From the NCBI GenBank assembly GCA_030429345.1, contig JAUIFJ010000048.1:1-21472 (forward strand): a stretch of 21,472 nucleotides of DNA, given 5' to 3'. Below, in pieces: positions 2,914 through 21,472 of the stretch; within the stretch, counting starts at the first letter, position 1; every line of letters begins with the position of its first letter. This DNA comes from a bacterium (GTDB lineage: Bacteria; CAIWAD01). A program made the translations under genes and the position numbers. Under the pieces are notes generated by a model. The model saw nothing but the letters and a program-made list of their open reading frames with translations. It was not told the origin of the DNA and searched no databases.

Positions 2914-2940
2914 CTGTCACACAAATTTTAAATTATATGC

Positions 2941-2969
2941 TTGACTTCTACTGTTATATTGCATATACT
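2941..2969 (+). promoter_or_regulatory. Consensus-like sigma-70 promoter of the toxin-antitoxin pair
   Basis: TTGACT at 2941-2946 and TATACT at 2964-2969 are separated by exactly 17 bases in an AT-rich stretch unlike the flanking genes. Transcription should begin near 2975-2977, at the first ATG of the toxin gene (2976), so the message may have little or no leader. Confidence 0.82.
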
Positions 2970-2975
2970 TTAGGC

Positions 2976-3344
2976 ATGAGAAAGATGATCACCCTCGGAT
3001 TCCAGCGCTGGGCGCGGAAGCAGAAAATCCAGACCAAGCAACTGCTGAAAGCGGTTGAAGACCTGAAGGCCGGTCTGGCCGACGCCAAGTCACTGGGTCA
3101 CCACCTCTGGCGCATCCGGGTCGCGAAGGGAAACCGGGGCTCAAGCGCCGGATACCGCACGTACCTGACGTGGGTGGAAGAGCAGCACGTGATCTTCATT
3201 ACCGGAATCCGGAAGACCGATCAAGACAACCTGAGCAAAGGCGATCTGGAGACCGTGAAACACTTCAGTCAGGAGTTCGCCCAGCTGTCAGAACAAGAAC
3301 TGCAGACCCTGATCGACAATGGACAACTGATCCTCATTGAGTAA
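2976..3344 (+). CDS. RelE/HigB-type toxin of a type II toxin-antitoxin system
   Basis: This is a predicted ribosome-dependent mRNA interferase of the RelE/ParE superfamily (the RelE-like family with a QRWARKQK...LLKAV start). It has 122 residues. The core signature is visible: LWRIRVAKGNRG (about 44-55), the GYRTYLTW strand (59-66) and FITGIRKTDQDNL (74-86), where related toxins read F.F.K..R.N. The toxin gene comes first and the HTH antitoxin second, as in higBA. I chose 2976, just after the -10 box; ATG 2985 is an alternative and would leave a leader of only about nine bases. As an addiction module it would stabilise an extrachromosomal or integrated element. Confidence 0.85.
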   Translation: MRKMITLGFQRWARKQKIQTKQLLKAVEDLKAGLADAKSLGHHLWRIRVAKGNRGSSAGYRTYLTWVEEQHVIFITGIRKTDQDNLSKGDLETVKHFSQEFAQLSEQELQTLIDNGQLILIE

Positions 3345-3370
3345 CACAAAACTCTGAATCACAGGTACAG

Positions 3371-3697
3371 ATGAACAAGCGAATGAAAGAGGAGCTGCGT
3401 GAAATGGCCCTTGCCCTCTTCAGCGTGGGCAGCGCGACCAGCATCACAGCCCGCGACCTCAACCGAATCGGCCTGAAAATCGAGCCCCCGGTCATCACGC
3501 CCAAGCAGGTGATCGCCCTGCGGGAGAAACTGGGCCTCAGCCAGGATGTGTTCGCCCAGGTCCTGGGCGTGGGAAAAATGACGGTCTCCAAGTGGGAACG
3601 CGGAACCTACCCGCCTTCCGCCACGGCGGCCGTGCTGCTCAAGACTATCGAGCGTGATCCCTCGATCATCAAGTACAGGCTGGGGCTGGAAGACTAG
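3371..3697 (+). CDS. HigA/NadS-type HTH antitoxin
   Basis: This is the antitoxin partner of the toxin ending at 3344: 108 residues with a C-terminal Xre-type HTH at about 44-95. The recognisable features are VITPKQVIALREKLGLSQ, then FAQVLGVGKMTVSKWERG and a PP.A...LL..IE tail, typical of antitoxins paired with this RelE-like family. The N-terminal 40 residues probably bind and neutralise the toxin. The gap to the toxin is 26 bases, and the two are likely cotranscribed from the promoter at 2941. Such antitoxins usually bind their own promoter, here the AT-rich 2920-2975 stretch. The ATG at 3371 has a weak AGGT ahead; ATG 3383 is possible. Confidence 0.87.
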   Translation: MNKRMKEELREMALALFSVGSATSITARDLNRIGLKIEPPVITPKQVIALREKLGLSQDVFAQVLGVGKMTVSKWERGTYPPSATAAVLLKTIERDPSIIKYRLGLED

Positions 3698-3899: not shown

Positions 3900-4808
3900 T
3901 CAATATCCAGATGCACGACCTAACATGAGAAGCGTGGTTGCAGTTAAATGCATTGTGTATTCTGCCATAAACTCAGGAATAACTCTCACTTGAGAACCTT
4001 GGCCATGACCCGCAAGCTTGTTTCGAGTCGTAGGTATACCTGATTCTAGAATTGATTGCAACGCATTGAGCTGATTATGAAGAAACTTGGGTATAAGGCC
4101 ATTTTTTAAACATACTTCAATGAGCTTTTTTGCAGAATCATTTTCACCGAATTTCCAGCCTCTTCTTTCAGCTATTACTTTAAGCATTGTTTCTAGACTC
4201 TTATTGGCTTCAACCAAACATGATTCATATCTACCATGACGATAGCTCTTATGTGCTTCTAAAAACTCCTGATTTACAGTTGAAAATGTAGAACTCCGCA
4301 ATAACACAAGTAGTGGTATTACCGCCTCTGAATGAATGAACTCAGAGTCAATTCGGATAATTTCACCCGATTCAAATTGGTATCCGATACCAGATTCTTT
4401 GAATCTTGCATTTAACTCCTCCAAAGCGTCGTCCATGCTTAGGGATCTGTTGAAGTAAAAGCTATTATCCCTGATTTGATTATCCGCATATCGAAACAGT
4501 ATCTCTACTGCATCTAGAACTCTCTCTGGATCTGCTTCATTGAGTATAAACTCACTAAGTGATTCGAAACCTTCTTCGCGGCCTCCTGTCAAGCTGAATT
4601 GTCCATACTCCCTACTTAGCGCCTGTTCAATTTCATGAAAGACCGATCTAGCATAATTCGTAATCTTATTATCCTGCGAATAGATTTCCCCTATCAAGTG
4701 TATTATCTGGATTCTTAGAGTTTTAGGAATACAATCGTACTCATACACGTCAGGGAACTCACCCCTTTCGCGCTTTCTACGCTTGGAGAACAAATCAATT
4801 ATCGCCAT
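3900..4808 (-). CDS. Abortive-infection protein, STM4504/CBY_0614-like, HEPN-type C-terminus
   Basis: This 302-residue protein matches my recollection of the STM4504/CBY_0614 family: N-terminal MAIIDLFSKRRKRERGE with a following VY.YD.IP..LR.QI segment. The C-terminal Abi domain starts at about residue 175. In that domain a helical EFLEAHKSYRHGRYESCL segment precedes RNKLAGHGQG at about 262-271, where R262 and H268 form an R-x5-H motif as in HEPN ribonucleases. The likely role is an RNase-type abortive-infection effector acting on host or phage RNA in the cytoplasm (inference). It is the last gene of an AT-rich minus-strand block, 82 bases after the YfbU gene. Composition and codon choice differ clearly from the GC-rich phage genes, which suggests transfer. 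Confidence 0.8.
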   Translation of the reverse strand: MAIIDLFSKRRKRERGEFPDVYEYDCIPKTLRIQIIHLIGEIYSQDNKITNYARSVFHEIEQALSREYGQFSLTGGREEGFESLSEFILNEADPERVLDAVEILFRYADNQIRDNSFYFNRSLSMDDALEELNARFKESGIGYQFESGEIIRIDSEFIHSEAVIPLLVLLRSSTFSTVNQEFLEAHKSYRHGRYESCLVEANKSLETMLKVIAERRGWKFGENDSAKKLIEVCLKNGLIPKFLHNQLNALQSILESGIPTTRNKLAGHGQGSQVRVIPEFMAEYTMHLTATTLLMLGRASGY

Positions 4809-4890
4809 ATAATTCTCTCCTGCTAGCGCTCAGGACACCTTTTGAACAGTCTGGCCATGTGTTGCCTGCGCAAAACGCAATACCGCAACC

Positions 4891-5445
4891 TTAAGATCTA
4901 TTACTAGGGTGTATTTGCTCCAAAAGGATCGCAGCCAATTGGTCAACACCAAGATCCCTAAAAGCCAATGTGCTTCGAATAGGTTCAAATGCTGACAACA
5001 TCCTACGATAGCCTTCAATTGACGGTCTATGTGAATTCATACTGCGCCCTTTGAACTCATCAAACCGTTCAAGATCATTAATCAAAAACCTAGCAACGCT
5101 CATGTATTCTGTTTCGTGGTTTCCATCAAATCCTGTGAACCTCGGATTATCTCCAAACGGATGCGCCTGCTCTTTCAGAGTCTCCTTTTCAGTGTCGGAT
5201 AACTTATCATATGCAAGTTCTATGAAACTCCACATATCAAGTACGTCAACAACATCCTTGACAATCTCAGGTGTTTCATCGTCAGAAAACTGAATTCCAG
5301 TATACTTCCAAGAAAATGCCCATAACTGGTCCTTGAAGATTGCGGACCTAACAAATTCAGGATCTATTCCTCCTTCTAACCCAAGCTTCTGATATACATC
5401 AGACAACATTAACAGAATGAGTTTTTCACCATTTGAGATCTTCAT
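4891..5445 (-). CDS. YfbU family protein
   Basis: This 184-residue protein follows the YfbU pattern from end to end. It has an N-terminal MKISNGEKLILLML (Escherichia coli YfbU starts similarly with N..RLIL.N), DVLDMW (IDIMEMY in YfbU) at about residue 66, FTGFDGNHETEYMSVARFLIN (split; about 103-122; the F.GFD...E..YL.YVRF core), and the YRRMLSAF (YQRMLNVW) motif near 146-153. The molecular role of YfbU proteins is not settled. Here the gene sits 17 bases after a membrane-protein gene and 82 bases before an Abi gene, all on one strand in an AT-rich block, so a regulatory or sensing part in a defence module is a reasonable inference. Confidence 0.83.
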   Translation of the reverse strand: MKISNGEKLILLMLSDVYQKLGLEGGIDPEFVRSAIFKDQLWAFSWKYTGIQFSDDETPEIVKDVVDVLDMWSFIELAYDKLSDTEKETLKEQAHPFGDNPRFTGFDGNHETEYMSVARFLINDLERFDEFKGRSMNSHRPSIEGYRRMLSAFEPIRSTLAFRDLGVDQLAAILLEQIHPSNRS

Positions 5446-7307: not shown

Positions 7308-8669
7308 CTAGATCTGACCCCGTGTTGATCTTGTACGCCGTTCACGCTTGACCTTGCCTGCCGGGCGTGATTCAGGCACCGAAGCCTTGTACGCCTGCAG
7401 CTTGGGCGCCGGGTTCTGGACCATCAGGGTCTTCATCTCCGCCTTGACCTTCGCCAGTTCCTGCAGGTCGAGCCGGCCGCCCAGGGCTTTCATCAGCGTG
7501 TCGTACTCGCCTTTGCGGATGGCACCGATGCGTGCCATGATCCGTGCCTGCGGCTGCTTGAACGCCTTGGCAAAGATCTGGATCACGCGGTGTGGATCCA
7601 AGAACTCGGTCTCCGTTGTCTTGGACAGCCGATAGATGTGGTTCCGGGTCTGGATGTGATCCTGGCCGATGAGGTGGGTGCGCATCACGTCCCCCAGCTC
7701 TTCCTTCCGGCGGTAGAGGATTTTTGCCGCGTTGTTCATCCGCTCGTATTCCTCAGCCACGGCCGTGACGTCCATGGGGTCTATTTGCGCCTGTGGCAGG
7801 CCCTGATCGACGATCTGGCGCCACAGCGGGCATGCGTGCCGGACTTCGCAGTACGCGCAGTTCTTGTTCAGCTGTGGCCTGAATTCCCTGGTGGACTCGA
7901 TCTTGCGGACCAGGCCGACGATTTCGGTGAAAGCCTGGTTCAACTGCTCGGGACTGCGGGTGGTCCGCTGGTTGATCCCGGGGTGGCGTAGCATCACAAA
8001 CTCGATGTCCACCGGTGTCTCGGGATGGACGTTGAGCACCGTGCTGTCACGGACGGCCAGCTCGTAGATACTTGCCTGCCTGGACCGCCTCAGCTCGTCG
8101 TGTGTGAAGAGCAGTCTGCTGGACTTGTAGTCCACGATGCGGACGGTGTCATCGCCTCGGTGTTCCAGACGATCGATGTAGCCTCGGATCCCCACATCGC
8201 CTTCGAGGTCTTCCAGGATCAGCTTGAAGGGCCATTCGAGCCCGCGGATGGACTGGGCGTCCACCAGTTCGGTGGGCAGCCAGTGTTTGAGGATCTCCTG
8301 TGCCTCGATCAGGACTGCTGCACCTGCGGACGGGTCTTCTGCAAATGCCTGGTTCAGCATGTCGTAATACAGGTGTGCTTCCTTGACCACCCGGCCGGAG
8401 TGTCCGCCAGCCCACAGCTCCTGGGTGGCGAGTTCCAGGCACCGGTGCAGCAGGGTTCCGAGTGGCAGGGGGCCAGTCGGGTTCTCGACCACCTGGTGCT
8501 CGATGCCCAGCTTGGGGTCGATGTACCGGGCTTTATAGGCCTGTGGGCAATTGCAGAAGAGGTCGATGGACGAATGGGAGTGGAACTCCCTGTGGTGTGT
8601 GTATCCCTTCGGCAGCTGGGACTCCAGCATCTGGGTCTTTGGCAGCTGCAGGGTCTGTGTCTGTGACAT
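7308..8669 (-). CDS. PD-(D/E)XK nuclease of the RecB/Cas4 type with Fe-S cysteines
   Basis: This 453-residue protein carries the Cas4/AddB/RecB nuclease signature. It has S..DLFCNCPQAYKARY (about 34-49), GTLLHRCLE with H75, GYIDRLEH with D166, IVDYKSS with D180 and K182 (the D...D-x-K core), and QASIYELAV (Q198...Y202). Cys41 with C271, C274 and C280 (CAYCEVRHAC) can hold a 4Fe-4S cluster. It probably acts as an exonuclease in phage recombination or end processing. A C-terminal extension (about 290-453) is basic and unassigned. AAAGGA lies seven bases before the ATG. The gene lies directly downstream of the repeat array on the same strand, which suggests a role in replication or recombination started there. 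Confidence 0.88.
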   Translation of the reverse strand: MSQTQTLQLPKTQMLESQLPKGYTHHREFHSHSSIDLFCNCPQAYKARYIDPKLGIEHQVVENPTGPLPLGTLLHRCLELATQELWAGGHSGRVVKEAHLYYDMLNQAFAEDPSAGAAVLIEAQEILKHWLPTELVDAQSIRGLEWPFKLILEDLEGDVGIRGYIDRLEHRGDDTVRIVDYKSSRLLFTHDELRRSRQASIYELAVRDSTVLNVHPETPVDIEFVMLRHPGINQRTTRSPEQLNQAFTEIVGLVRKIESTREFRPQLNKNCAYCEVRHACPLWRQIVDQGLPQAQIDPMDVTAVAEEYERMNNAAKILYRRKEELGDVMRTHLIGQDHIQTRNHIYRLSKTTETEFLDPHRVIQIFAKAFKQPQARIMARIGAIRKGEYDTLMKALGGRLDLQELAKVKAEMKTLMVQNPAPKLQAYKASVPESRPAGKVKRERRTRSTRGQI

Positions 8670-8801: not shown

Positions 8802-8853
8802 GACCTTGTGGAACACGCCTTTTGATTTCGAATCAGCCGATAGCGTCAAAATC

Positions 8854-8880
8854 AGAGGCCAAAACTCACTTTTGGCCTCT
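8854..8880. terminator. Strong 11-bp stem-loop, possible intrinsic terminator
   Basis: AGAGGCCAAAA (8854-8864) and TTTTGGCCTCT (8870-8880) pair perfectly around CTCAC. On the plus strand it is followed by CTTTGCG, and on the minus strand by GATTTTGACG. Neither is an ideal U-tract, so it may be a weak bidirectional terminator or a structural element at the left edge of the repeat array. Confidence 0.55.
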
Positions 8881-8885
8881 CTTTG

Positions 8886-9232
8886 CGAACGCCCAGCCCA
8901 ACGCCCACGCCTATCTGCATGACATTCAAGCAGATGAGTCCAAAAAGGGCTCTGGGCGTTGGGCTTTTGGCCAGTCTTTCCAATCACGCGATAACTCTCT
9001 CTCGTCTTAGTGGGGGGCTTTGGTCTGGGCGACATCACTTAGTAATCTCTTATTTTTCTAATAGGACCTAGTTGTTGCCGCCCAGTCAATGACGCCCACA
9101 GGGCTTTCTGTTCTGACTCTGGATTTCGCCAACGCCCAGAGCCCTTTTTGCACTTATCACTTTGATTTTAATTCCTTTAGCCTGGGCGTTGGCTGGGCGT
9201 TGGGGTTCTGGAAAAAGACCAATGGGCGTTGG
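8886..9232. repeat. Dyad-symmetric iteron-like array (TGGGCGTTGG) around an AT-rich centre; candidate origin
   Basis: Exact copies of TGGGCGTTGG lie at 8953-8962, 9183-9192, 9194-9203 and 9223-9232 (plus), and of its complement at 8898-8907 and 9129-9138. A one-mismatch complement copy is at 8886-8895, and TGGGCG half-sites are at 9026-9031 (plus), 9079-9084 and 9093-9098 (complement). The copies pair up about one centre: 8886 with 9203, 8898 with 9192 and 8953 with 9138 all give a midpoint near 9045, where AGTAATCTCTTATTTTTCTA (9041-9060) is AT-rich. Outer copies are tandem at 11-12 bp spacing, one helical turn. This is the arrangement expected of a protein-bound replication origin or a partition site. 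Orientation and symmetry argue against CRISPR. Confidence 0.85.
8941..9150. repeat. 22-bp perfect inverted repeat flanking the AT-rich centre
   Basis: The 22 bases at 8941-8962 (CAAAAAGGGCTC followed by the TGGGCGTTGG core) are the exact reverse complement of 9129-9150. The arms are 166 bases apart and the symmetry axis is at 9045.5, the same axis as the surrounding shorter copies. The match ends sharply on both sides. Chance identity of this length in opposite orientation is very unlikely. Confidence 0.93.
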
Positions 9233-9260
9233 CTACCCCCTAGGAAGCCAATGAATTCAT

Positions 9261-9348
9261 GTTCAGCAAATGTTCTCTTGTTCATTTCATAATTTTGAAA
9301 CACACGGGTTTCAGAATTTTTAAATGAACAAGAGAACAAGGCCTGAAC
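9261..9348. repeat. 88-base near-perfect palindrome (cruciform/hairpin)
   Basis: Arms 9271-9301 and 9308-9338 are complementary over 31 bases with three mismatches, around an ACACGG loop. After four unpaired bases on each side, GTTCAG (9261-9266) pairs with CTGAAC (9343-9348). The outermost 17 bases of the 31-base arms match perfectly (starting TGTTCTCTTG). It lies between the repeat array and the stop codon of the HTH gene at 9399. There is no T-tract after it on the minus strand, so it is not a standard terminator. An operator, a nicking or initiation hairpin, or a telomere-like site are alternatives. Confidence 0.9.
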
Positions 9349-9398
9349 ACAATTGCGCCATTTTCTTGAGGCCAAGATTCTGGCGTAAGGAACGATAA

Positions 9399-9899
9399 TC
9401 ATATCCAGTCCTCATCGGTTGAGGGTGACAGGCTGTCCATCCATTCCTCAATTGCGGCCTGGGTCTCTTTCCTGGGCATGGACTGACCAGACCGCCAGCG
9501 GTTGACGGTCTGGACGGTTACCCCGAATTTCCGTGCCACCTGCTGGGTGTTCATCCCCAGTTTTTTGATACACCCGTCCAGTGCGTTGGCGAAGGAGTTT
9601 TGTTCCGTGTACTCCCTGAGGCGGAGGGTCGGACGTGGTGTGGGTGCGGGCCTATTGACTACCGGCCTGTTCATCGCGCGGGACAGTGCTTGCAGCCCCT
9701 TCTTCGTCCTTTTCAGATCCTGTTCCAGTTGCTCAACACGGCGCAGGCGCACTTCCTGGCCTTCCAGTTTCTCTTTCACCTGGTCTATGAAGGGTCTGAT
9801 GTACCCGCGCATCCTGTGCACCAGGTCTGCCACCTGGGCCAGTGTCCAGTCCTGGGGGTTGTCTGGCAGTGGGGTGGCCCCCTGCTTATTCTTCTCCAT
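9399..9899 (-). CDS. Coiled-coil plus Xre-type HTH DNA-binding protein
   Basis: The 166-residue protein has a helical N-terminal half (about 16-75; a heptad-like stretch VKEKLEGQEVRLRRVEQLEQ), a Pro/Arg-rich linker (78-96), and a C-terminal HTH at about 104-150 with QQVARKFGVTVQTVNRWRSG, a helix 2-turn-helix 3 pattern. It is probably a dimeric or oligomeric site-specific DNA binder. The ATG at 9899 has AGGAG eight bases upstream. It is the last of three HTH genes and is adjacent to the palindrome and repeat array, so it is the first candidate for their binding protein. Replication initiator, partition-site binder and repressor are all possible; no enzymatic motif is visible. Confidence 0.82.
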   Translation of the reverse strand: MEKNKQGATPLPDNPQDWTLAQVADLVHRMRGYIRPFIDQVKEKLEGQEVRLRRVEQLEQDLKRTKKGLQALSRAMNRPVVNRPAPTPRPTLRLREYTEQNSFANALDGCIKKLGMNTQQVARKFGVTVQTVNRWRSGQSMPRKETQAAIEEWMDSLSPSTDEDWI

Positions 9900-9917
9900 T
9901 GGGCCTGCTCCTGTTGG

Positions 9918-10664
9918 TTAGAAGGGGATTTCGTCGATTTGTGATTGGGGCGACGTCTCCAGCTCGGCCGGCAGGGCGTCCAGCACTTCCCGGCATTCGA
10001 CCCTGAAGTACAAGCCCCAATACTTTGTGATCGTGTGGATATCCTGCCCTTCTTGCTGGTACAGCTTGATCAGGGTGGACAACACCGTCAGCCGGGATTT
10101 GGGTTCGGGCAGACGCTGTTCAATAGCATGGCATTGCTCACTTGGCCACAGGCCTTCCATCAGGGCTGCGAGCTCGCGACAGTTGCGGAGGGCTTCGAAC
10201 TTGCCGTACGCATCGATCACCGCCCTGGATACCAGTCGGATGGCCATCCTTCTGTCCCTTGCCTGCTTTTCCAGCTCTGCCCTTGAGGACTTTTTCAACC
10301 GGCGTGCACGCGCCTCCCGCGCCTCAAGTGCGATGGCACGCAGGTCGTCCGGACCGGCAGCTTCAACGGCTGCAATCCAGTTCAGTAGGGCCTGAAGTCT
10401 TTCATTCGTTGGCCGCGACTTCCCGTTTCGCCATTGGCCAACCGTGTCGGGAGTCACGCCAATCAGGGCGGCGAGCTGCGATCTCTTGACCCCGACCTTT
10501 TGCAAGGCGAATCGCAGTCTTCTTGCCAAGGGCTTGTGGTACGGATGTTGTGAGAACACATATCCGGGTGGAAGCCCCTTCATCATTTCCTTGACCAGGA
10601 AGTCATTGCCTGCTTTCTCGCCGCCGGACCCGGTATTCAAATCTTTGTCTACTTGGCTATTCAT
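9918..10664 (-). CDS. HTH DNA-binding protein with long helical C-terminus
   Basis: The 248-residue protein has an HTH at about 45-98 (KPLARRLRFALQKVGVKRSQ, LAALIGVTPDTVGQWRNG, then a PTNERLQ.LL end). A basic helix (about 104-145, with EAREARARRLKKSSRAELEK) and an unassigned C-terminal domain follow. Its start overlaps the upstream HTH gene by four bases (ATGA at 10661-10664), with AAGGAG ahead. It has 18 bases to the next HTH gene. The large extra domain is unusual for a simple phage repressor and might serve oligomerisation or replication. I cannot assign a family beyond Xre-type. Confidence 0.8.
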   Translation of the reverse strand: MNSQVDKDLNTGSGGEKAGNDFLVKEMMKGLPPGYVFSQHPYHKPLARRLRFALQKVGVKRSQLAALIGVTPDTVGQWRNGKSRPTNERLQALLNWIAAVEAAGPDDLRAIALEAREARARRLKKSSRAELEKQARDRRMAIRLVSRAVIDAYGKFEALRNCRELAALMEGLWPSEQCHAIEQRLPEPKSRLTVLSTLIKLYQQEGQDIHTITKYWGLYFRVECREVLDALPAELETSPQSQIDEIPF

Positions 10665-12091: not shown

Positions 12092-12477
12092 CTGACACCT
12101 CGATCCATGCTGGTGATGAAGGTCCGCAGCTTCTCCACCCCGGTGATCATCTGCAGGACCTTCAGCCCGTTCTCCACGCCGGTCTCGGACAAGAAGGCGG
12201 CGATGGCCAAGAAATCCCTGGCAGTGATCTGGTCGGTCCAGCCCTTCTCATCCAGAAAGGACTGCGCGGCCGAGTGGACATCGGGTCCGGATTCGTAGCA
12301 CATGCGGATATCCAGCTGTTCGAACACGGCTTCCAGGCTGCTGATCTGGGGGCTGAAGCCCGGCTTGTTCAGCATGTCGTGCACGGTGCTAGTGGAAAGG
12401 CCGGCAGCCCTGGCCAGGGCACGGGCCGAGAGGTTCTTGCGCTCCAGGCCTTTGACGATTTCATTTCTCCAACTCAT
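12088..12477 (-). CDS. Cro/CI-like HTH regulator
   Basis: The 129-residue protein starts with an HTH at about 5-55: MSWRNEIVKGLERKNLSARA, LARAAGLSTSTVHDMLNKPG and a SSLEAVFEQL helix. The C-terminal half (70-129) contains TDQITARDFLAIAAFL and a helical tail, and may dimerise. The ATG at 12477 has AAGGAG about ten bases ahead. A longer open frame to 12642 runs antisense-like through the zinc-ribbon gene and is not the start. It sits in the middle of the early string rather than at a divergent switch, so a late or early-gene modulator is as likely as a lysogeny repressor. Confidence 0.8.
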   Translation of the reverse strand: MSWRNEIVKGLERKNLSARALARAAGLSTSTVHDMLNKPGFSPQISSLEAVFEQLDIRMCYESGPDVHSAAQSFLDEKGWTDQITARDFLAIAAFLSETGVENGLKVLQMITGVEKLRTFITSMDRGVR

Positions 12478-15699: not shown

Positions 15700-15993
15700 C
15701 TACTTTCCGTTTGCCCGTGTGCCACACCTGGTGCTGCTCAAACCCAGCAGAACCCAACCCTCGGCCAGACCTGGTGTACCTGCCGGCACGATGTGCGTGA
15801 TGCATGCGCTAAAGGCCCGGTCCGTGATCTCGCTTCCACAGATCTCGTGCACCAGGATCCGCTGTCCCAGCTGGTACTCGAGGTCAGCCGGAGCCAGCAG
15901 GGCCTGCAGCTGCATCCGCAGCCCGTGTTCGAACTCACTGGTCGGCATGTTGAGTTCGTGGTCGAAGCGACCAAACCGCTCTATGTGATTCAC
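15700..15993 (-). CDS. Small uncharacterised protein downstream of methyltransferase
   Basis: A 97-residue protein starting at GTG 15993, inside the methyltransferase stop (GTGA), with AAGGAGG four bases ahead. N-terminal HIERFGRFDHELNMPTSEFE is followed by LEYQLGQRILVHEICGS and ITHIVPAGTPGLAEGWVLLG. The last part reads as strands with a Gly-rich turn. The pattern suggests a compact enzyme-accessory or nucleic-acid-binding protein, but nothing specific is seen. Confidence 0.7.
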   Translation of the reverse strand: MNHIERFGRFDHELNMPTSEFEHGLRMQLQALLAPADLEYQLGQRILVHEICGSEITDRAFSACITHIVPAGTPGLAEGWVLLGLSSTRCGTRANGK

Positions 15994-16907
15994 GCAACCT
16001 CCTTGATGGCTTTGATCATGTCAGCCGCCACGGGCGGGCACACGGAATTTCCCAGCAAGTGCACGGCGAGCCTGCGGTTGGCCGGCAGCTGGTAGCCTTC
16101 GGGGAATCCCATTCCAGCGCGCACTTCGTCGGGAAGGAGCATCCGCATCCGGTCACCGTCGACGATGGCCCAGCGGTCCCTGGTAGTCAGTGTGCCGATA
16201 GGGCGCTCGAGGCTTCGTCCACCGCGCTCGTTGCCGTAGTAACCAATCAGGAATCGCGGGCCGTGATCACGACGGCCGCGGGAAACTCTCGCGAGCGTGG
16301 CCGCGGCTCGCCCTGCGCGACGAACCGGGGACCAGTCGCCCCCAGACAAGTCCACGATCGTGGCGGCAGGTGTGTACTCCCGGCTGGGCAAGTTGAGGCC
16401 CAGCGGCGCGCGGCTGCGGGTTCCGACGATGAACAGCCGGCGGCGATGCTGGGGCACCCCGTGATCCGCGGCGTCGACGATCATGGGCATCAGGCTGTAG
16501 CCCAGGGCTTCCAGTGCCTGGCGCCAAGCGGGGAACAGCTGCCACTTCGCGAATTCGGGGACATTCTCGACCAGCAGGACAGGCGGCCGGTGGCACTCGG
16601 CTGCGGATACGACAGCCCAGGCGGTCGACCGTGTGGCGTCATGGTGCGGCCTGTCCTTGCCCCTGGCTCGGCTGTGTCCCTGGCAGGCGGGGCTGGCCAG
16701 CAGCAGGTCATGGGCCGGCACCTGGGTCCAGTCAGCCTGGTGCAGATCCTGGCAACTGTGCTCGGTCTCCGGGTGGTTGGCTTGGTGCGCCTCGACTGCT
16801 GCAGGCCAGTGATTTGCTGCCCAGACGACTTCGATACCGGCCATCCGAGCGCCCTCGCTGAATCCACCAGCGCCGGCGAACAGGTCAATCGCCTTGAGAC
16901 CGCTCAT
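15990..16907 (-). CDS. DNA (cytosine-5-)-methyltransferase, orphan phage type
   Basis: This enzyme transfers a methyl group from S-adenosylmethionine to C5 of cytosine. The 305 residues carry motif I (DLFAGAGG, 8-15), motif IV with catalytic C75 (ASPACQGHS, 71-79), motif VI (LLVENVPEF, 111-119), motif VIII (QHRRRLFIVG, 153-162), a short target-recognition region (about 170-230), and motifs IX-X (GTLTTRDRW and GNSVCPPVAADMI near the end). Motif IV reads PAC where many relatives read PPC. No restriction endonuclease gene is adjacent, so it probably protects phage DNA from host restriction or marks it. Starts at ATG overlapping the SEC-C gene stop (ATGA). Confidence 0.94.
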   Translation of the reverse strand: MSGLKAIDLFAGAGGFSEGARMAGIEVVWAANHWPAAVEAHQANHPETEHSCQDLHQADWTQVPAHDLLLASPACQGHSRARGKDRPHHDATRSTAWAVVSAAECHRPPVLLVENVPEFAKWQLFPAWRQALEALGYSLMPMIVDAADHGVPQHRRRLFIVGTRSRAPLGLNLPSREYTPAATIVDLSGGDWSPVRRAGRAAATLARVSRGRRDHGPRFLIGYYGNERGGRSLERPIGTLTTRDRWAIVDGDRMRMLLPDEVRAGMGFPEGYQLPANRRLAVHLLGNSVCPPVAADMIKAIKEVA

Positions 16908-18999: not shown

Positions 19000-19279
19000 C
19001 CGTGACCGGCCCCAGAAGTCCGTCGGTCAGGCAACCCACGCCATCCAGATCGAAGTGCTGCACCAGGCGCAGTAGGGTTCGCAGTCCCGGCATCTGGCCC
19101 CTGGGCTTCAGGATCCCCTGCAGGCTGCCCATGCTGATGCCCGCGGCGCGCGCCACGACCGCCGGCACCGCAGGCGGATCAGACTCCTGCATCAGCAGCC
19201 GAACACTGTGTGACAGACGCTGAAGGACCTCGTGGTCCAGCTCGGAAAGCGGCTTGCGCCGCGCCCGCGGTTCGCTCAT
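18986..19279 (-). CDS. Small HTH regulator
   Basis: A 97-residue protein with an HTH at about 35-80: AVPAVVARAAGISMGSLQGI, a G..PGLRTLLRLVQHF helix follows. The fold order resembles Xre/Cro proteins. It is coupled to the gene at 19276 by an ATGA overlap, so the two HTH proteins are made together. It may act as an early phage transcription regulator. Confidence 0.72.
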   Translation of the reverse strand: MSEPRARRKPLSELDHEVLQRLSHSVRLLMQESDPPAVPAVVARAAGISMGSLQGILKPRGQMPGLRTLLRLVQHFDLDGVGCLTDGLLGPVTDAAQ

Positions 19280-20073
19280 GCCTCACCGCCTTTCGAACCA
19301 GACTCCAGATATGCCAGGCCTTCTAGGTGCAGATCCGTGATGTGCTCGGCCTTCAGACCATAGACCAGCTGGGCAATCCGCATCCGGTTCCGCAGATCCG
19401 GCTTCTGGGTCTTGTCCGCCCACTTGTAGAGCGTGCGGACATGGACGCCCAGCTCCTCGGCCGCGCGGCTATCCACCTTGCCGGGCTGGGCCAGCAGCTG
19501 CTTCAGTTTCAGGATCAGGGGATCTCCCCTGGAATCCATGTCCGCCGTGCCCGCCAGCTGCTCAGGGTTTGGGCTGCGCACATCGTAAACCCAGCCGGCG
19601 ATTTCCTGGCGATGGCGCTGGCTGGGGATTGAGCGGCCTTGCGCCCATTGCTCGATCAGTTCCACGGGTGCGCCCACGTCCTCGGCGAAGGCCCAGACGG
19701 TGGCCGGGTCCGTCCTGGAGAGCAGGTAGCGCAGGCGATTCATTAGCGGATCGCGGGGCACACGTTGGTCCAGCTGCTGCCGCAGCTGTTGTTCCAGGTT
19801 GCGCTTGAGCCGCATTTCCATTCGCAGCACTTCAGCTTTTGTGGTGGCCGCCTGCGCCTTCGAGTCCTCCCTGATCCTTCGATCGCAGTAGCGTTCCGCA
19901 TCACGGGCTAGCTGGTTCTGCCCATCGATCGCTACGTCCACAGCACCCTGCAGGCGATTGATGCGCGCGACTAGCAGGTCCACCGCAGTCTTCCAGTCCG
20001 TGCTGGTAATCCACCGCCAGAAAGCCTTGAGCGGCCCCGGGCGCAGTGCCCGGTATTGGCGATCCATATGCAT
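19276..20073 (-). CDS. Coiled-coil protein with two HTH-like domains
   Basis: A 265-residue protein. Residues about 35-105 form a long helix or coiled coil (with EVLRMEMRLKRNLEQQLRQQ). Two HTH-like units follow: about 110-165 (TVWAFAEDVGAPVELIEQWA) and about 185-240 (AAEELGVHVRTLYKWADKTQ, then a P..R.RM.IAQLVYG helix). Two HTH units would let one protein bind paired sites. GAAGGGG lies six bases before the ATG at 20073. It resembles the 9399 gene in joining a coiled coil to an HTH with a W at the end of helix 3. The first HTH is less certain than the second. Confidence 0.72.
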   Translation of the reverse strand: MHMDRQYRALRPGPLKAFWRWITSTDWKTAVDLLVARINRLQGAVDVAIDGQNQLARDAERYCDRRIREDSKAQAATTKAEVLRMEMRLKRNLEQQLRQQLDQRVPRDPLMNRLRYLLSRTDPATVWAFAEDVGAPVELIEQWAQGRSIPSQRHRQEIAGWVYDVRSPNPEQLAGTADMDSRGDPLILKLKQLLAQPGKVDSRAAEELGVHVRTLYKWADKTQKPDLRNRMRIAQLVYGLKAEHITDLHLEGLAYLESGSKGGEA

Positions 20074-20860: not shown

Positions 20861-21472
20861 CTAGTCGCCGAAGGGGTCGAGGGTGCCTTCCTCGTCGCCG
20901 CCGGCGTCCTGGCCATTGGTCACTTCATCTTCAAGTGCATCACCTCCCTCCGGGCTGGATTCCTGTTCCTCTTCGGAGGCCGGATCCCCCGCCCGGGGCT
21001 GGGCGACTGCCGGGTCGGAATCCACTTCCCCGGGCGGGTTGGCCGGCTCTTCGGGATTGTTCTCCACCGCCGGGCGCGGCGTGTGCGTCACGACCGTGAT
21101 CCGGCCGGTCTTCTTGTCCAGCTCGGCACTGTACTGGAATTCGGATTCGAAGAGCGGGTACTTCTCCCTGAGCTCGTTGATCCGCTCCACCGGTTCCAGC
21201 AGCCGCTGGATCTGCTCATCCACCAGCTTGGCCGTCGACTGCATGCGGATCACGTCGTTCATCTTCTCCGCGGTCAGCAGGCAGGTCTTGGCGTGGTCGC
21301 GCGCATCCAGCAGCTGGCCGAATACGGTGCGCCAACCGCGCGTATGCGTCATCTCCTGCAGGTCCAGCAGCTCCTGGACCAGGTCCTGGTAGTCGCGTGT
21401 GGCAGCCGGTGGCGGTCCTTCCGGCTTTTCGGACTCCTCGTCCTTCGGCTCTTCCGGCGGATCCGTCCCTTC
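20861..21472 (-). CDS. Acidic coiled protein, 5' end outside window
   Basis: The frame is open from 21472 to the TAG at 20861, at least 203 codons. The visible order is an acidic stretch (PPEEPKDEESEKPEG), a helical coiled core (YQDLVQELLDLQEM, later MNDVIRMQSTAKLVDEQIQR), a strand segment (FESEFQYSAELDKKTGRITV), and a long Glu/Asp/Pro-rich disordered tail. No family is recognised. ATG 21352 is internal: the upstream frame stays open and in character, so the true start lies beyond the edge. Confidence 0.7.
   Translation of the reverse strand, partial: EGTDPPEEPKDEESEKPEGPPPAATRDYQDLVQELLDLQEMTHTRGWRTVFGQLLDARDHAKTCLLTAEKMNDVIRMQSTAKLVDEQIQRLLEPVERINELREKYPLFESEFQYSAELDKKTGRITVVTHTPRPAVENNPEEPANPPGEVDSDPAVAQPRAGDPASEEEQESSPEGGDALEDEVTNGQDAGGDEEGTLDPFGD

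Follow-up and report, generated by a model that had tools for sequence, protein, structure and literature searches.

The window analysed here is the whole of contig C43 (21,472 nucleotides) from a 4.24-Mb genome assembled in 92 contigs. Two leftward genes in it flank a gap, a PDDEXK (Cas4/lambda-exo-like) exonuclease gene (7308-8669, minus strand), which is conserved among sister elements, on the left and HTH1 (9399-9899, minus strand) on the right. The HTH1 product has an N-terminus that appears coiled-coil-like by eye and a Cro/C1-type HTH at its C-terminus, which gave an HTH_3 match in a profile scan. The gap holds two arrays of repeated words, site A (8886-9232) and site B (9260-9349). Indels between the site A region and the sister contig C57 (L009) were not multiples of three, and the region was thus taken to be non-coding; no Rfam family was matched and no tRNA was found. 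The first-pass annotation had regarded coding sequence at this position in homologous elements, or loss of the symmetric copies there, as decisive against its reading. The region was non-coding wherever the alignment was readable, and a symmetric array was present in all seven elements.

Site A, a putative origin, is an array of TGGGCGTTGG half-sites arranged symmetrically about an AT-rich core. All seven copies (six exact, one near) of the 10-bp word reported in the first-pass annotation, in both orientations, were located at 8886-9232. The left tandem pair is formed by the near copy TGGGCGTTCG (8886-8895, minus), its outer member, and an exact copy (8898-8907, minus), and the right tandem pair by exact copies at 9183-9192 (plus, inner) and 9194-9203 (plus, outer). 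Two further exact copies (8953-8962, plus; 9129-9138, minus) lie within the left (8941-8962) and right (9129-9150) arms of a 22-bp perfect inverted repeat, as had been described. The proposal that the pairs share one axis near 9045 held for the main axis, which falls at about 9045.5 with the midpoints of the mirror pairs ranging from ~9039 to ~9051, but the symmetry is incomplete, the exact copy at 9223-9232 (plus) having no mirror partner. Inner half-sites, TCTGGGCG at 9024, CGCCCA at 9079 and ACGCCCA at 9092, flank the core on both sides, in agreement with the earlier description, and the stretch which they span (9024-9098) is the part of the array most diverged from L009. The core itself, CTCTTATTTTT (9035-9066), is a putative melting region, and the most AT-rich 30 bp lie ~2 bp or less from the axis, which bears out the earlier placement of the axis on an AT-rich stretch.

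Matches to TGGGCGTTGG with no more than one mismatch numbered nine in the window against 2.15 expected, and nine or more were reached in none of 100 shuffles. Site A had a symmetry score of 34; over 200 dinucleotide shuffles, scores averaged 2.6 and did not exceed 9. A dyad and repeat search, as the first-pass annotation had suggested, placed site A first in the whole window as its most symmetric spot, followed by a separate inverted repeat at 9312, which is site B. A GC-skew switch, also proposed at that stage, was not clearly visible at site A. An inversion of the core between the window and L009 was considered and set aside, its sole support being one shared 11-mer.

Site B is an inverted array of six TGTTC words, three on the plus strand (9260, 9271 and 9279) and three on the minus strand (9326, 9334 and 9345). 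Elsewhere in the window, positions 2937-3697 and 3900-5445 carry a RelE-like toxin gene with a small ORF beside it and a 40% GC island encoding AbiJ_NTD4/DUF7014 and YfbU proteins, and these genes are likely to be defence cargo. A C-5 cytosine DNA methyltransferase is encoded at 15990-16907 (PF00145, E 2.5e-45). The protein encoded at 11331-12410 of L009 has an FtsK gamma DNA-recognition domain (E 1.7e-22), no motor domain being reported by the Pfam scan, and its homologue in the window is truncated by the window end (20861-21472).

Sister elements were found three times in the genome of the window, the window included, and at least four more times in G001, a genome from another genus of the same family, where they appear to be integrated, lying within long contigs. 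Homologues of the exonuclease were present on C57, C26 and partly C24 in the genome of the window, and four were present in G001; as the match of the window to C24 runs as far as 7570 and that to C57 starts at 7638, the two contigs probably represent one element. An array of the site A type occupied the same gap in seven of the seven elements with a readable region. For each of the seven the symmetry was reached by none of 200 shuffles, and the most AT-rich 30 bp lay no more than ~10 bp from the axis; every sister array had an A-tract core at its axis. The words change among elements, some of them entirely, and the layout is constant; the symmetry was weaker in C26 (score 10). The A and B axes were 193-196 bp apart in the G001 elements and 234-259 bp apart in those of the window's own genome. 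The boundaries of the A and B segments used for the symmetry and word tests were set by hand after the sequences had been viewed, and an unsupervised symmetry scan placed the same A and B spots among its top-ranked positions. A further genome, G002, holds a looser version of the array, which we regard as tentative and have excluded from the seven.

By their 6-mer repeats, the window and L009 have site A words in common, those of C26 are different and those of the G001 sites overlap in part, giving about three word types overall and a 2:1 split within the genome of the window. In an alignment of the G001 arrays, GCGGGCAG/CTGCCCGC half-sites surround an A-tract core that the arrays have in common; C58 carries variants. 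In C26, a cassette comprising site A, site B, HTH1 and HTH2 (~8805-10658 in the window) has been swapped as a block between flanks that are 87-91% identical. HTH3, HTH4 and HTH5 were considered as binders of site A and rejected, being largely conserved in C26 despite the different site A there. The site B words of L009 (GTGTCCA; L009 1620-1720) resemble the half-site GTGTCCATAA within the site A of C26 (L023, near 19250-19410).

Comparison of the window with L009 offered an opportunity to follow the specificity of the two sites. The site A words are unchanged between the two elements. At site B, in contrast, TGTTC is absent from L009, the six positions carrying TGTCC (five) or TGTCT (one), so that the same base has been altered in six of the six words. 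The two HTH1 proteins share 82% identity; their recognition helix changes from GVTVQTVNRWRSG in the window to GATVRTVNRWRSG in L009, with Val-Ala and Gln-Arg replacements (helix 3). In protein-DNA contacts glutamine prefers adenine and arginine guanine; since these preferences fit the changes in both helix and words, binding of site B by HTH1 is a reasonable inference, and HTH1 appears better matched to site B than to site A. Each element, co-resident ones included, has site B words that are essentially its own. In the C100 element of G001, site B had no repeated 6-mers and no significant symmetry, and its assignment there thus rests solely on an 8-bp inverted repeat.

The C100 element of G001 extends over ~84.7-115.1 kb. 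Besides an integrase and a methyltransferase, it encodes an SSB-like protein, two helicases (one DinG-type, one ResIII), a primase/AAA+ fusion and an AAA_23 protein. The fusion, a primase-helicase, joins a DnaG-type (CHC2/Toprim) primase to an AAA+/DUF3631-like part (a weak match), and its C-terminal segment, close to the weak DUF3631 match, looks winged-helix-like by eye. It is encoded at 102.7-105.6 kb, ~15 kb away from the site A of C100 near 87.3 kb. The ResIII helicase encoded at 3631-5694 of L042, with its homologues on C2, C63, C76 and C58, has a RuvC-like region at its C-terminus, for which the Pfam RuvC match was below cut-off (E 0.029). In C58 of G001 the reading frame of the primase-helicase is interrupted where the primase part gives way to the helicase part (12440-12461, L032).

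Three primase-helicases are encoded in the genome of the window, on C2, C63 and C76. Their primase halves are 95-97% identical, and their C-terminal halves split 2:1 with a sharp breakpoint at about residue 390, C2 and C63 being at least 90% identical and C76 ~30-50%. By C-terminal type the proteins fall into C2/C63, C76 and the four of G001 (C100, C22, C93 and C58), these four sharing one winged-helix-like type (LTxNRLTN.LK); the protein of G001 C98 stands apart, containing stops and fitting no type. The number of primase-helicase types per genome matches that of site A types, and the GCGGGCAG-like half-sites common to the G001 arrays run parallel to the one primase-helicase type shared there. 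Contig C57 differs from C76 and C63 at the overlaps, which leaves C2, of the majority type, as the partner of L009 by elimination. A direct C57-C63 join was rejected, the 80-bp overlap being only 95% identical, and no bridging contig linking the window or C26 to C63 or C76 was found. The pairing of initiator and array is thus consistent with the sequences, with L009 alone assigned, by elimination.

The region had no BLASTN match in phage and plasmid collections, a search for the same array in such genomes having been proposed in the first-pass annotation. The exonuclease query found no relatives in viral and genome contigs, and in phages only distant Cas4-like exonucleases (~25% identity). An alignment search with the helicase in genome and viral contigs recovered distant helicases only, without the rest of the element. 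The tandem-word pattern had one match in viral contigs, which was taken as chance, the array layout being absent by eye, and matches to the inverted repeat at two host loci were by eye unrelated repeats.

We consider it probable that site A is the origin of a P4/PICI-like integrative replicon, with the primase-helicase as its likely initiator, and that site B is a control or immunity site of HTH1; origin activity, the identity of the initiator and the role of site B we infer from sequence. The element would replicate following excision, from site A (8886-9232), where an element-encoded initiator would bind the inverted half-sites to the left and right of the AT-rich core and open that core. 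Given the mirror arrangement of the sites, helicase would be loaded on both strands and forks would depart in both directions. The initiator would most likely be the fused DnaG-type primase/AAA+ helicase, acting through its C-terminal winged-helix-like segment in the manner of P4 alpha. Site B (9260-9349) would be a control site in its own right, to which HTH1 would bind. Since co-resident elements have different words there, site B would most likely set immunity or incompatibility, perhaps through silencing of the origin next to it.

Sites A and B could instead serve together in transcriptional control of the exonuclease gene, as an immunity or early operator for a cooperative repressor or activator, with looping between the halves. 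The array does lie just upstream of that gene, genes for several HTH proteins of the Cro/C1 type are adjacent to it, and site B varies as phage immunity operators do. However, a sigma-70-like promoter was not found in the region (a weak test), and the flanking genes are co-directional, so that the gene layout needs no divergent promoter. Moreover, a 350-bp AT-centred mirror array that is kept with unrelated words exceeds the usual operators, and the specificity of HTH1 appears to follow site B rather than site A. We therefore regard this reading as unlikely.

The first-pass annotation had left the choice between an origin and a partition site. Partition would make the gap the centromere of a plasmid-like stage, with an HTH1-type binder and with A and B as two box types. 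The position of the sites just 3' of the HTH1 gene, as parS lies downstream of parB, the coiled-coil-like part of HTH1, the weak match of its HTH profile to the chromosome-anchoring protein RacA and the difference in site B among co-resident elements, as incompatibility requires, would all agree with this. In ParABS systems, however, a partition ATPase gene lies beside the centromere-binding gene, and no ParA- or ParM-like protein was recognised among the neighbouring proteins scanned; in addition, the G001 elements seem to be integrated in long contigs, and centromeres are not typically marked by an AT-rich core. The elements bring a primase-helicase and accessory helicases of their own and keep the symmetric layout, and since a partition ATPase was not recognised the origin is favoured, partition being quite improbable. 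A role in recombination or in packaging (as attP arms, cos/pac or a protelomerase target), for which the inverted arm-type sites about a core and the presence of integrase and HTH genes would speak, is very improbable indeed, as the integrase gene of C100 lies at the opposite end of the element, ~27 kb away from site A, the proteins scanned included no confidently recognised terminase or capsid protein, and the core is not a long palindrome.

On the preferred reading of an origin beside an HTH1 control site, the PICI/P4-like origin layout is extended to a sparsely sampled bacterial phylum. Seven sisters from two genomes, with one layout and different words, form a comparative set for changes in initiator and repressor specificity, and the apparent Gln to Arg switch, paired with the same base change in six target words, would represent protein-DNA specificity evolving in nature. 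A bolder and more tentative reading is that these elements form a new family, with a mirror-array bidirectional origin, a remote DnaG-primase/AAA+ initiator and an HTH1/site B code that governs co-residence. If so, replication and immunity specificity would evolve independently, with the HTH1/site B code evolving fast beside the origin.

A close parallel for the putative initiator is the alpha protein of satellite phage P4, with its ori/crr, which combines primase and helicase in one protein with a C-terminal winged-helix-like candidate origin binder. Primase, helicase and a C-terminal winged-helix-like segment likewise occur in a single protein here, a likeness of architecture; in contrast, the array layout differs from ori/crr and the primase here is of the DnaG type (CHC2/Toprim). 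In lambdoid immunity regions, co-resident elements differ in repressor-operator specificity and share other modules. Site B and HTH1 would show the same specificity pattern, although here HTH1 lies in the same operon direction and the site is downstream of the gene. In the PLE of Vibrio cholerae, the origin and the initiator that belongs to it are exchanged as modules among elements that are otherwise alike, and inverted repeats converge on a poly-A tract, with a RepA_N initiator and three semi-palindromic iterons (PMC7145576, PMC8263062). The elements described here are alike in inverted repeats at an A-tract and may resemble the PLE in module swapping, but a RepA_N match was not seen.

The layout of site A matches that of PICI/SaPI origins, in which two iteron sets always flank an AT-rich region (PMC6092414), and the word "new" in the earlier description of site A was thus overstated. 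Common to both are two word sets around an AT-rich region, an integrative carrier and genes for a primase and a helicase-type initiator, sometimes fused (PMC6092414), a trait represented here by the C100 fusion and its homologues, the putative initiators. No capsid gene was found among the proteins scanned, and a helper phage was not identified. PICI origins lie just 3' of the initiator gene; in C100, however, the origin-like array is ~15 kb from the primase-helicase gene. The elements differ further in the mirror symmetry of the array and in the pairing of this origin-like array with a second, HTH-linked array, site B.
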